DNA of 64,000 nucleotides from Desulfobacteraceae bacterium. GTDB taxonomy: Bacteria; Desulfobacterota; Desulfobacteria; Desulfobacterales; RPRI01. The stretch spans positions 1-64,000 of the forward strand of contig JAABQB010000001.1 in NCBI GenBank assembly GCA_011391695.1. Direction: 5' to 3'. A model generated the notes under the pieces. The model saw only the letters and a list, made by a program, of their open reading frames with translations, searched no databases and was not told where the DNA came from. Position numbers and translations under genes: made by a program. Shown here in pieces: positions 51,408-56,393 of this stretch (the stretch's first letter is position 1; every line of letters starts with the position of its first letter).

Positions 51408-51477
51408 CAACCCTGCTTCCCTCATGCTTCTGCCCTGCTTCATCCGGCATCAGATAATCAGTCTGCCATTTACTTCG

Positions 51478-51504
51478 GGAACATTTAGCAGTATAAATTG
51501 TCTA
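51478..51504 (+). promoter_or_regulatory. Candidate ECF-sigma promoter of the sigma gene
   Basis: GGAACAT (51478-51484), 16 bases, then TCTA (51501-51504). The same elements with the same spacing occur at 53390-53416 before the vWA gene. The -10 element lies only 6 bases before the ATG at 51511. Confidence 0.65.
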
Positions 51505-51510
51505 AAACAT

Positions 51511-52131
51511 ATGAGCAGCGCAGAAGATCAAAATAGGGCACATATTGAGGAAGATCCGGATGCCGATCTGATTTCCGCCTTTAACTCCGGGAATACCCAT
51601 GCTTTTGATCAACTGGTTTTGCGGTATAAGGACCGGATCTTTAACCTGTGCTACCGATCCCTCGGTGATTATCAGGAAGCCTACGATACGGCTCAGGAGA
51701 TTTTCATCAAGGTATACAAAAATCTGCAATCCTTCAGAGGTGAGGCCTCCTTTTTAACCTGGCTTTACACGATTGCCGGCAATACGTGTAAAAACAGATT
51801 GAAATCATTGGAATACAGGTATCGCAACAAAAAAGTTTCATTGCATAATCCGTATAATCATGAAGATGGAAGTAAGGACAGGGAGATTGAGGATGAAAGC
51901 GGATCGCCGCTTGTTGTGCTTGAAAAAAAAGAGATGATGAAAATTATCCAGGGAGCGATCGATTCATTGCCCGCAGAACAGAAACTGGTGGTGATTTTGC
52001 GCGATATCGAAGGGCTTTCTTACGAGGAGATTATAAACATTACCGGTCACAGGTCCGGCACGGTTAAATCCAAACTGGCACGTGCCAGGCTTGTCTTGCG
52101 CGAAAAACTAAGGGGTATAATTAAAGGATGA
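51511..52131 (+). CDS. ECF-family RNA polymerase sigma factor
   Basis: RpoE-like ECF sigma factor of about 206 residues. Region 2 includes FDQLVLRYKDRIFNLCYRSL and DAQEIFIKVYKNLQSFRGEA-like DNA-melting residues; region 4 has LPAEQKLVVILRDIEGLSYE and RSGTVKSKLARARLVLREKL. Upstream in-frame codons from 51424 are not conserved and overlap the promoter. The ATG at 51511 has no ribosome-binding site and may be leaderless. The stop overlaps the anti-sigma start by four bases, so both are made together. Confidence 0.88.
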   Translation: MSSAEDQNRAHIEEDPDADLISAFNSGNTHAFDQLVLRYKDRIFNLCYRSLGDYQEAYDTAQEIFIKVYKNLQSFRGEASFLTWLYTIAGNTCKNRLKSLEYRYRNKKVSLHNPYNHEDGSKDREIEDESGSPLVVLEKKEMMKIIQGAIDSLPAEQKLVVILRDIEGLSYEEIINITGHRSGTVKSKLARARLVLREKLRGIIKG

Positions 52132-53297
52132 ATTGTTCCCGTATAAATGAACTCCTTTCAGAGTATATTGACGGTCAGCTTGACAAAGAGCAGGAAGCTC
52201 TTGTCAAAGATCATCTTTTACTATGCGGGGATTGCAGGGATGAATTTGAATCGATTAAGGCGATCGTCCGGGAAATGGGTTCGCTGGATACGATTAAGGC
52301 CCCTGATGATTTTCTCGTCAGCCTGCACGGGCGCATAAAAAGCGATTCATGGTTTCAAAGAATTAAAGACTTCTTATATATACCAGCCCGCATCAGGATT
52401 CCTGTGGAGCTTGCCACCCTGGCAACTGCCGTAGTGGTAGGCTTTTTCATCTTTCATATAGTTCCGCCTATGATACCTTCAAATAAGGCGCCTTCAAATA
52501 TGACACCTTTAAATACAGTGCCTTCAAAAAGTCCTGACGACTTAAAAGATAAAAAAACTGAGCTTGAAATCAGGTCAAGTGAAAAGGTGCCGGTTTCCGG
52601 CTCCGGAATAAAACCGCCTGAACAGGTTGTCGTGACTGATAAAATCATGCCGCCGCCTCAAAAAAAACAGGAACATTATGATCGTGAACCCCTGTCATCA
52701 CCACCTTCAGTACTTCCGGCAACTCAGATATTGAAAGCAGCAGAAGCAGAGCATATTTCCATGCCTGTAAAAGCAGGAGGATTTCCTGTATCTGCTAATA
52801 TTAATGAACCGCTTCAAATGGTGCTTTTGCTGAAACCGGTTTTTAAAAAAGAGCTTGTATCTGAAGAAAGTAAAGATATCAAAGGGTTATATCAGGGAAA
52901 ACCGGAGGAGAAGGAAGCGGATAAAGCGGCGTCGGTCAGATTCAAAACGCAGGCAATGCCCGGTGTGGTTGGATCAATGAGCAGGGCAGAAACTCCGGTT
53001 GGCGAAAAATTGAAAAAATCGCTTGATGAAGAGAAAAAGACCTTTTCTTATCAGGAAGGACTTTTATTTAATATTATGGAGCATATTAAAAGCGCGGGAG
53101 GAAGCATATTAAAAACAGATATAAATAATGAGACCGGTCAGCCGGAATATCTTTTAATTGAAATATCCGGCCAGGATTATCAGAAACTTGTTGAAAAATT
53201 AGGTGAGTCAGGAAAAATTCAAACGAAGCCCGCAGGCGATGTCAGTCAATTCAAAGAGCCAATCCATGTCCGCATAAAGATTATTTTACCAAACTGA
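52128..53297 (+). CDS. zf-HC2 anti-sigma factor
   Basis: Single-pass membrane anti-sigma factor of 389 residues. The zinc-binding HxxxCxxC is at H29, C33 and C36 (HLLLCGDC). A transmembrane segment lies near 92-113 (LATLATAVVVGFFIFHIV). The outer part is long, Pro- and Lys-rich, with a PSNKAPSNMTPLNTVPSK run and a terminal domain (about 320-389) containing GGSILKTDINNETGQPEYLL. It probably holds the upstream sigma factor until an envelope signal releases it. Confidence 0.85.
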   Translation: MNCSRINELLSEYIDGQLDKEQEALVKDHLLLCGDCRDEFESIKAIVREMGSLDTIKAPDDFLVSLHGRIKSDSWFQRIKDFLYIPARIRIPVELATLATAVVVGFFIFHIVPPMIPSNKAPSNMTPLNTVPSKSPDDLKDKKTELEIRSSEKVPVSGSGIKPPEQVVVTDKIMPPPQKKQEHYDREPLSSPPSVLPATQILKAAEAEHISMPVKAGGFPVSANINEPLQMVLLLKPVFKKELVSEESKDIKGLYQGKPEEKEADKAASVRFKTQAMPGVVGSMSRAETPVGEKLKKSLDEEKKTFSYQEGLLFNIMEHIKSAGGSILKTDINNETGQPEYLLIEISGQDYQKLVEKLGESGKIQTKPAGDVSQFKEPIHVRIKIILPN

Positions 53298-53317
53298 TAA
53301 AATCAATTCCGGATATC

Positions 53318-53375
53318 CATCTCCCATCTTCCATCTCCAATCTTCAAACTCCTATCTCCCATCTCCCTTTTTTCT
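53318..53375. repeat. CATCTCCCATCTTCC repeat words
   Basis: CATCTCCCATCTTCCATCTC words continue as CAATCTTCAAACTCCTATCT and CCCATCTCCC. A pyrimidine-rich family seen only here in the window. Confidence 0.6.
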
Positions 53376-53389
53376 TTGAAAAATTTTTT

Positions 53390-53418
53390 GGAACTTTTTT
53401 GACGGATAATTGTCTATC
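53390..53418 (+). promoter_or_regulatory. Candidate ECF-sigma promoter of the VIT/vWA gene
   Basis: GGAACTT (53390-53396), 16 bases, then TCTATC (53413-53418), overlapping the palindrome CGGATAATTGTCTATCCG. Matches the promoter before the sigma gene. Confidence 0.68.
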
Positions 53419-53455: not shown

Positions 53456-55795
53456 ATGCAAAAGAAAAAAATGACATCGGTTTTTTTATTAATGAGTATC
53501 TTTATGATCCTTGTCTCCACGGCTTATGCGGAGAAAGGGGCGGAGACGGATAAAACCCTGTCACCATATTTTTTCATAAAGAGTGATGATCCGGAAACAG
53601 ACCGGCTTCCTTTAAAATCTACAACAGCAAAGGTGAATATTGCCGGAGTAATTGCTGATGTGGTTGTGACACAGGTTTACAAAAACGAGGGTCACAAACC
53701 ACTGGAAGCGATCTATGTGTTTCCGGCATCAACGAAAGCGGCTGTGTACGCTATGAAGATGACGATCGGAGAGAGGGTTATCGTTGCTGATATCCGTAAA
53801 CGCGATGACGCACGGAAGGCTTATGAGCAGGCAAAGCAGGATGGAAAAAGCGCGTCTTTACTCGAACAGCAGAGGCCGAATGTTTTTCAGATGAATGTGG
53901 CCAACATTCTCCCGGGAGATGTTATAAAAGTTGAATTGAAATATACCGAACTGCTTGTTCCGGATAACGGTTTGTATGAATTCATGTATCCTACTGTAGT
54001 TGGGCCCCGCTACTCCAGCCAGCCTGCCGAAGGGGCGCCTGCTTCCGAAAAATGGATATCGAATCCCTATCTTCGCGAAGGTGAGTTGCCGACTTATAAA
54101 TTTGACATCTCGATGCAGCTTGCAGCAGGATTGCCGATTCGTGAGATCACATGCTCATCGCACAAGGTTATTATTGATTATGACGGGCCAAACCAGGCGG
54201 CTGTGAAGCTTGACTCCACTGAAAAATCCGGCGGCAACAGGGATTTCATATTAGGGTACAGGTTGTCAGGCGGAAAGATTGAGTCGGGGTTGCTCTTATT
54301 CGAGGGAAAAGACGAAAACTTTTTCCTGCTTATGCTGCAGCCTCAGAAGAGAGTAACGGAAAACCAGATTCCTCCACGCGAATATATTTTTATAGTGGAT
54401 GTTTCAGGATCGATGCATGGATTTCCGCTTGATATATCAAAAAAATTATTAAGAGATTTAATCGGGAAACTAAGACCCTATGATCTGTTCAACATCCTTC
54501 TCTTCTCTGGAGGATCATCCCTCATGGCCGAACAGTCGTTACCCGCCACAACTGATAATATTCAAAAAGCCATCTATTTAATCGAACATCAGCAGGGAGG
54601 AGGCGGGACAGAATTGCTGCCGGCCCTGAAAAAGGCGTTATCTCTTCCAAAGAGTGAAGGCTTTTCGCGGAATGTGATTATTGCAACCGACGGATATGTC
54701 AGTATTGAAAAAGAAGCCTTTGATCTGATACGTAATTCTCTTGGGAAGGCGAATTTTTTTCCTTTTGGAATCGGTTCAGGTGTTAACCGGTTTTTGATTG
54801 AAGGGATGGCAAGGGCCGGCATTGGCGAACCTTTTATAGTAACAAAACCTGAAGAAGCGCAAAAAGAGGCCGAAAAATTGCGCATGCTTATTCAAAAGCC
54901 TGTTTTAACAGGAATTAGAATGGAGCATGAACAGTTTGACATATATGATGTCGAACCGCCGGGAATTCCTGATGTACTTGCAGAAAGGCCTGTAATAGTT
55001 TTCGGAAAATGGCGCGGAAAGGCACATGGCAAGATTATTCTGACCGGCTTTGCGGGTAATGAAAAAATCAAAAATGTAATTGATGTTGGTGGTGTGAAAC
55101 CGCTCGAAATAAACGGGGCTCTCCGTTATCTCTGGGCGCGGCATCGCATAGCCCATCTTTCCGATTATAATCTTTTGAGTCCGAATGATAAGAGAATAAG
55201 TGAAGTGACGGATCTCGGGTTGAAATATAATCTTCTAACTGAATATACATCGTTTGTAGCGATTGATTCCGAGGTACGCCTGAAAGACGGGCAGGCGACA
55301 ACTGTAACACAGCCCCTTCCGTTACCCCAGGGAGTCTCTGATCTTGCTGTCGGCGGAAGAGGTATGATGCAATACAGTAAGAATATGGGTATGAGTTTGC
55401 CGGCACTCTCCGGACCGGTGCAGGAAGCATTAGTTTCAAAAGAAGATAAGAATGAAAAGGATAAGAAATCGGCGATAATCCGTCTGGAAAAAGTTATTGT
55501 TTCAAGTGGGTTATCAAAAGAAATCGTCCAAAGATTAATAGAAGGGCAAATGAATCCGGTTCAAAGCTGTTACAATAAAGAGGTTCGCAACCTTTTGAAA
55601 AATAAAGGCAAAATAGTTTTAAAAATTGATATTGATTCAAAAGGCGCAATTGTTAAGATCTCTGTTGAAAGGGATGATTTGAAAAGCAATCCGGTTATGA
55701 CCTGCATCACACGGGAGCTTCTCAAGTTACATATGCCGCCTTCATCGGGTGGTAAGAATGAAATGATAACTGTTACATTAAGTTTCGGACAGTGA
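53456..55795 (+). CDS. Exported VIT/vWA protein with AgmX-like C-terminus
   Basis: Exported protein of 779 residues. The signal peptide ends at AYA (near 27). A VIT domain follows (about 45-190; ADVVVTQVYKNEGHKPLEAI and RDDARKAYEQAKQDGKSASL). The vWA domain has an intact MIDAS motif, DVSGSM at 315-320. The last 100 residues (IEGQMNPVQSCYNKEVRNL) look like the AgmX/PglI C-terminal domain of TonB-like proteins, so the protein may span the periplasm. AAAGGAGGG precedes the ATG. It is the likely main target of the neighbouring ECF sigma factor. Confidence 0.85.
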   Translation: MQKKKMTSVFLLMSIFMILVSTAYAEKGAETDKTLSPYFFIKSDDPETDRLPLKSTTAKVNIAGVIADVVVTQVYKNEGHKPLEAIYVFPASTKAAVYAMKMTIGERVIVADIRKRDDARKAYEQAKQDGKSASLLEQQRPNVFQMNVANILPGDVIKVELKYTELLVPDNGLYEFMYPTVVGPRYSSQPAEGAPASEKWISNPYLREGELPTYKFDISMQLAAGLPIREITCSSHKVIIDYDGPNQAAVKLDSTEKSGGNRDFILGYRLSGGKIESGLLLFEGKDENFFLLMLQPQKRVTENQIPPREYIFIVDVSGSMHGFPLDISKKLLRDLIGKLRPYDLFNILLFSGGSSLMAEQSLPATTDNIQKAIYLIEHQQGGGGTELLPALKKALSLPKSEGFSRNVIIATDGYVSIEKEAFDLIRNSLGKANFFPFGIGSGVNRFLIEGMARAGIGEPFIVTKPEEAQKEAEKLRMLIQKPVLTGIRMEHEQFDIYDVEPPGIPDVLAERPVIVFGKWRGKAHGKIILTGFAGNEKIKNVIDVGGVKPLEINGALRYLWARHRIAHLSDYNLLSPNDKRISEVTDLGLKYNLLTEYTSFVAIDSEVRLKDGQATTVTQPLPLPQGVSDLAVGGRGMMQYSKNMGMSLPALSGPVQEALVSKEDKNEKDKKSAIIRLEKVIVSSGLSKEIVQRLIEGQMNPVQSCYNKEVRNLLKNKGKIVLKIDIDSKGAIVKISVERDDLKSNPVMTCITRELLKLHMPPSSGGKNEMITVTLSFGQ

Positions 55796-55910: not shown

Positions 55911-55986
55911 TCCCCAGTAGCTCAGTCGGTAGAGCAAGTGGCTGTTAACCACTGGGTCCGCGGTTCGAGTCCGTGCTGGGGAGCCA
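55911..55986 (+). tRNA. tRNA-Asn (GTT)
   Basis: Cloverleaf starting TCCCCAGTAGCTCAGTCGGT, anticodon GTT at 55944-55946 in loop CTGTTAA, T arm GGTTCGAGTCC, acceptor CTGGGGA then G and encoded CCA. Confidence 0.96.
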
Positions 55987-56045: not shown

Positions 56046-56324
56046 ATGCCTTACTATGTCTATATCTTAAGAAACGAGGAATCCGGCGCACTTTATACCG
56101 GACATACATCAGATTCAGAGAAACTCCTTGCAAGGCACAATCATAAATCCCGGGTAACAAAAAGATATACCAAGAAGTGCGAATGGAATTGACTTGTTGT
56201 ACATTCTAAAGAATATAAAACAAAATCGGAAGCTATGCAGAGGGAGTATTTTCTAATATCCGGGCATGAGAGACAGTTAGTTGAGCATATAAATTTGGAG
56301 AAGAACATAATATATTTGATTTAA
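56046..56324 (+). pseudogene. GIY-YIG endonuclease-like gene with in-frame TGA
   Basis: MPYYVYILRNEESGALYTGH and SKEYKTKSEAMQREYFLISG match a complete small GIY-YIG protein of 92 codons. A TGA stops it at codon 49 (56190-56192), where family members usually have Trp or Lys before LVY. No SECIS-like hairpin is obvious, so I call it a nonsense mutation. A second damaged GIY-YIG gene lies at 5976. Confidence 0.75.
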
Positions 56325-56393
56325 TCGATTAATTAGATTATTAAAAATCATGTTGTCTCCAATATTGAAAATTTATCCTTGAAGGAAATATCA

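Follow-up and report, generated by a model that had tools for sequence, protein, structure and literature searches.

Among described systems, the closest to the locus presented here are the SigW/RsiW and RpoE/RseA-type pairs, which control broad envelope regulons. Our locus resembles them in its two-domain ECF sigma factor, its membrane anti-sigma factor (RsiW is the top fold match of the N-terminal domain), its promoters of the GGAAC/GTC type, and its predicted autoregulation. It differs from them in that its promoter motif marks essentially one target and in that the start codon of the sigma gene directly follows the promoter. The sigma factor also falls below the equivalog cut-offs for both RpoE and SigW; against the RpoE model TIGR02939, for example, it scored 144 bits with a cut-off of 236. 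The target protein has relatives of its own in the TIGR03788 (marine proteobacterial sortase target) and exosortase K clusters, which likewise encode a secreted protein with VIT and vWA domains, about 55% identical to ours. It scored 412 bits against TIGR03788, short of the equivalog cut-off of 552. Unlike in those clusters, the VIT/vWA protein here ends in an AgmX/PglI (TonB-C-like) tail and is encoded next to an ECF pair; paralogs in the order have no ECF motif. With the AgmX/PglI proteins of myxobacterial gliding (GltG), the likeness is limited to the C-terminal domain NF033768, and the GltG equivalog score was 36 against 650. All parts of the locus belong to known classes, namely an ECF sigma factor, a class I anti-sigma factor, probable autoregulation, and a TIGR03788-related VIT/vWA protein. 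A 2021 review (PMC8103513) puts the autoregulated share of ECFs with predicted regulons at about 55%, so autoregulation is by itself ordinary. In the literature that we searched, we came across no ECF circuit paired with a VIT/vWA-AgmX protein, though the 2021 ECF re-classification may already list this pairing.

The locus lies on the forward strand of the window, by which we mean the whole 64,000-nucleotide stretch of DNA that was analyzed. The sigma gene (51511 to 52131) encodes 206 amino acids with the Pfam domains Sigma70_r2 (residues 37-101) and Sigma70_r4_2 (147-196) and no region 3, the domain composition of ECF (group IV) sigma factors; the protein scored 107 bits against TIGR02937 (cut-off 42.9). 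It overlaps by 4 nt a gene for a membrane anti-sigma factor with an N-terminal zf-HC2 domain (52128 to 53297, 389 amino acids), and this adjacency, which is typical of ECF neighborhoods, is conserved in relatives. The HxxxCxxC zinc motif of the anti-sigma factor (H29, C33, and C36) is invariant in 19 sequences, and the structure model places one predicted transmembrane helix at residues 93-111, followed by a confidently modelled alpha-beta domain at the C-terminus. Zinc motif and transmembrane helix together place the protein among the class I zinc-binding (ZAS) membrane anti-sigma factors. A fold search with the C-terminal domain gave no significant match, the best weak ones being PilO and PulM; some orthologs of the anti-sigma factor weakly match DUF4349 and DUF2275. 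At one contig end (L134:3732-3815, genome G007), the 3′ end of the anti-sigma gene is present a second time in inverted orientation, which probably reflects an assembly artefact.

The VIT/vWA gene follows at 53456 to 55795 and encodes 779 amino acids with Pfam VIT and VWA_3 domains. Its C-terminal domain scored 57.1 bits against NCBIfam NF033768 (AgmX/PglI; cut-off 40), and a signal-like N-terminal helix was modelled at residues 2-20, in a structure model of low mean confidence (62.8). In the order, paralogous VIT/vWA genes (about 55% identity) have no copy of the ECF motif upstream; where their neighborhoods were examined, they lie in clusters with exosortase K and response-regulator genes. 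Two such paralogs (L047, L053) have exosortase K and also a response regulator of the CreB type as neighbors. VIT/vWA homologs in Bacteroidota had no GGAAC motif at the conserved position. Seven of these Bacteroidota loci (L275, L286, L291, L292, L294, L296, and L297) have a distant ECF sigma gene nearby on the opposite strand.

Two ECF-type promoters, which we call P1 and P2, precede the sigma gene (51478 to 51504, GGAACATTTAGCAGTATAAATTGTCTA) and the VIT/vWA gene (53390 to 53416, GGAACTTTTTTGACGGATAATTGTCTA), both on the forward strand. The preliminary description had placed matched sites of identical spacing at these positions, and both indeed read GGAAC-N18-TCTA; the sequence that they have in common, AATTGTCTA, is one base longer than had been claimed. 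In P1, the -35 element is GGAAC and the -10 element GTCTA. Under the general rule for ECF promoters, the -35 element contains AAC and the -10 element CGT (PMC8103513); here AAC lies within GGAAC, and the -10 element has TGTC rather than CGT. Scans with sigma-70 promoter consensus sequences yielded nothing above shuffles. The interval between the anti-sigma gene and P2 (53298-53380) carries degenerate pyrimidine-rich repeats (ATCTCCCATCTTCC...), and three other loci (L136, L139, L184) have other simple repeats between P2 and the VIT/vWA gene.

ECF transcripts begin about 5-6 nt downstream of the -10 element. The sigma gene of the window has its ATG 6 nt after TCTA, and in all 26 sigma genes in which the matching promoter is conserved, the start codon lies 5-6 nt after TCTA (ATG in 25, GTG in 1). 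Given the usual ECF start distance, the sigma mRNA should therefore begin at or near the start codon, and from this -10 geometry we predict a leaderless sigma mRNA. The same TCTA-to-start spacing occurs in a further homolog (L199), and in a lineage with a 19-bp spacer, some loci (L244, L234, L235) show the leaderless spacing and others are ambiguous. VIT/vWA genes typically start at least 37 nt downstream of their promoter, after AGGAGG-like sites; the one in the window has the Shine-Dalgarno sequence AAAGGAGG.

The prediction of a leaderless message has one competitor of some weight, in which both promoters depend on the sigma factor, but a distant promoter gives a leadered sigma mRNA or translation begins at a later codon. 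This would suit the reading frame in the window, which extends upstream without a stop as far as an ATG at 51424, as well as the 9 of 26 orthologs with another possible in-frame start within the first 25 codons. It is harder to reconcile with the other 17, which have no such codon, or with the 8 of 26 that have an in-frame stop between the -10 element and the ATG and in which an upstream start is thereby excluded. The distance from TCTA to the start codon is moreover fixed at 5-6 nt, and any ribosome-binding site would necessarily share sequence with the -10 box. We consider this competitor unlikely.

Next, we followed the promoter across 389 genomes of the order, using the extended form of the motif, GGAACnTTT-N11-TTGTCTA. 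Orthologs of the sigma factor were present in 24 genomes, and the exact extended motif occurred at 48 sites in 29 genomes; 44 of these sites are located upstream of the gene for either this sigma factor or the VIT/vWA protein. The exact motif was found in 20 of the 24 sigma-positive genomes versus 9 of the 365 sigma-negative genomes, and 8 of these 9 are assemblies that hold the VIT/vWA gene. Our Fisher tests ignore phylogeny, and we did not rely on their p values. Of the four sigma-positive genomes without the exact motif, three (G073, G167, G323) carry a close variant at each of the two genes, and one (G183) carries such a variant at the sigma gene. The remaining 4 of the 48 sites comprise two without an assignable target (in G051 and G046:C504) and two in G194. 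No such promoter precedes at least six of the order's VIT/vWA-AgmX genes, suggesting that the target can also exist under other control.

When 53 promoters (26 of sigma genes, 27 of VIT/vWA genes) were compared, GGAAC and GTC were invariant and TTT nearly so; as these promoters were collected by a GGAAC-N18-TC search, GGAAC and the spacing are partly imposed, a bias of which the exact-motif genome counts are free. The flanks are weakly conserved and carry little information on the sigma side. The 27 VIT/vWA promoters have additional A/T tracts upstream, as does P2 itself, and a pyrimidine-rich spacer.

The two promoters persist when the genes are no longer neighbors. In G024, 62 kilobases separate the sigma/anti-sigma pair from the VIT/vWA gene, and in G088, they lie on different contigs; each retains the promoter at both places. 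Two further genomes (G126, G310) have an extra gene between the anti-sigma and VIT/vWA genes, again with both promoters in place. The promoters also change in concert: GTCTG replaces GTCTA at both promoters in two genomes of one family (G073 and G167), and both promoters have GTCTT in locus L252 and GTCTC in L259. A scan of named genomes recovered the same arrangement of genes and promoters in Syntrophales, Syntrophobacterales, and Nitrospirota, and most of the loci from Syntrophales and Nitrospirota have one extra spacer base in each of the two promoters (19 versus 18 bp). Across the 38 loci or genomes in which both promoters could be read, the distance from GGAAC to GTC at the sigma and VIT/vWA promoters was 22/22 nt in 29, 23/23 in 8, and 24/23 in 1, meaning that spacer length was equal in 37 of 38. 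A maximum-likelihood tree built from 32 sigma factors requires at least two changes of spacer length, since L261, with 23 nt at both its promoters, falls inside the 22-nt group.

The preliminary description proposed that the sigma factor drives both its own gene and the VIT/vWA gene. We accept this reading on the strength of the conservation of both sites across genomes, the co-occurrence of the motif with the sigma gene, its persistence at unlinked loci, the concerted change of the two promoters, and the lack of the motif at paralogous VIT/vWA genes. Such a pattern argues strongly for an ECF sigma circuit that is positively autoregulated and dedicated to one main target, which we regard as very probable from comparative sequence evidence. 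In an alternative reading, the promoters are real, but a different, RpoE-like ECF sigma factor of the cell recognizes them, and the linked sigma gene is just one of its targets. GGAACTT and TCTAA resemble the general RpoE/SigW promoter type, and G194, a genome that is 91% complete, carries three such promoters, at its VIT/vWA gene and two other genes. The sigma homologs in G194 are distant (34% identity), and none is a close ortholog of the linked sigma factor. The motif nonetheless tracks the presence of the linked sigma gene across the 389 genomes, spacer length and -10 base change together at both promoters within lineages of that sigma factor, and with a general sigma factor at work, one would expect the genome to contain more than two targets. 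We therefore think it improbable that another RpoE-like sigma factor is responsible. As for the two additional exact promoters of G194, one (L180:1923-5035) precedes a gene for a second protein with a VIT domain, which also has TPR and DUF2135 parts, and the other (L179:1953-3576) a gene for a DUF4139 protein; neither target gene was found in the genome of the window or in eleven sigma-positive relatives.

The preliminary description had also suggested a genome-wide count of the short motif GGAAC-N18-TCTA, with background frequency to be read as evidence against it. A pattern search of the 2.8 Mb genome returned 11 copies where about 23 are expected by composition, and the neighboring spacings of 16, 17, 19, and 20 gave 5-11 copies each. 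The short motif is thus at background frequency, and its count is uninformative; taken at face value, this test would wrongly have rejected control of both genes by the sigma factor. The extended motif, with about 0.008 exact copies expected by composition, was found twice, and a search allowing up to one mismatch returned only P1 and P2. That P1 and P2 resemble each other by chance, with the genes transcribed from other promoters, would agree with the background count of the short motif but has a negligible probability given the extended motif, which is found at these genes only, and its conservation across families and phyla, which effectively refutes it.

Under the dedicated-circuit reading, the membrane anti-sigma factor would at rest use its cytoplasmic zinc-finger domain to retain the sigma factor. 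The RsiW-like N-terminus, the H-C-C motif, and the membrane helix fit the idea that the sigma factor is sequestered at the membrane until the arrival of a signal. Such a signal, perceived outside the cytoplasm, would then release the sigma factor, and the sigma-RNA polymerase complex would read the two near-identical promoters. From P1, it would produce a sigma/anti-sigma mRNA whose 5′ end lies at or beside the sigma start codon and which, judging by the spacing, may be translated without a leader; from P2, it would produce the mRNA of the VIT/vWA protein, which is presumably secreted, with an ordinary ribosome-binding site. An envelope-response role, also part of the original proposal, is plausible in view of the domain architecture. 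The model as a whole, in which a near single-target circuit makes its sigma and anti-sigma factors from a leaderless mRNA and its target from an mRNA with a normal leader, such that feedback loop and output use different routes of translation initiation, and in which the sigma factor and both promoters evolve together throughout Desulfobacterota and Nitrospirota to give natural specificity variants (18- or 19-bp spacer, TCTA or TCTG), seems to us about evenly balanced between holding and failing.

The most interesting features of the locus are the predicted leaderless expression of the sigma factor and the concerted promoter variants. The first amounts to a conserved prediction of leaderless sigma-factor translation. 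The second provides a natural series of matched sigma factors and promoters, varying in spacer length and -10 base, that is useful for the study of ECF specificity. For the VIT/vWA proteins that uncultured sulfate reducers and related bacteria encode, the locus offers a concrete candidate regulator and a testable promoter pair. Finally, downstream of the VIT/vWA gene, a tRNA gene (55911-55983) directly precedes a GIY-YIG-like reading frame (56048-56325, YYVYILRNEESGALYTGHT) that appears to be interrupted by a TGA near 56193.
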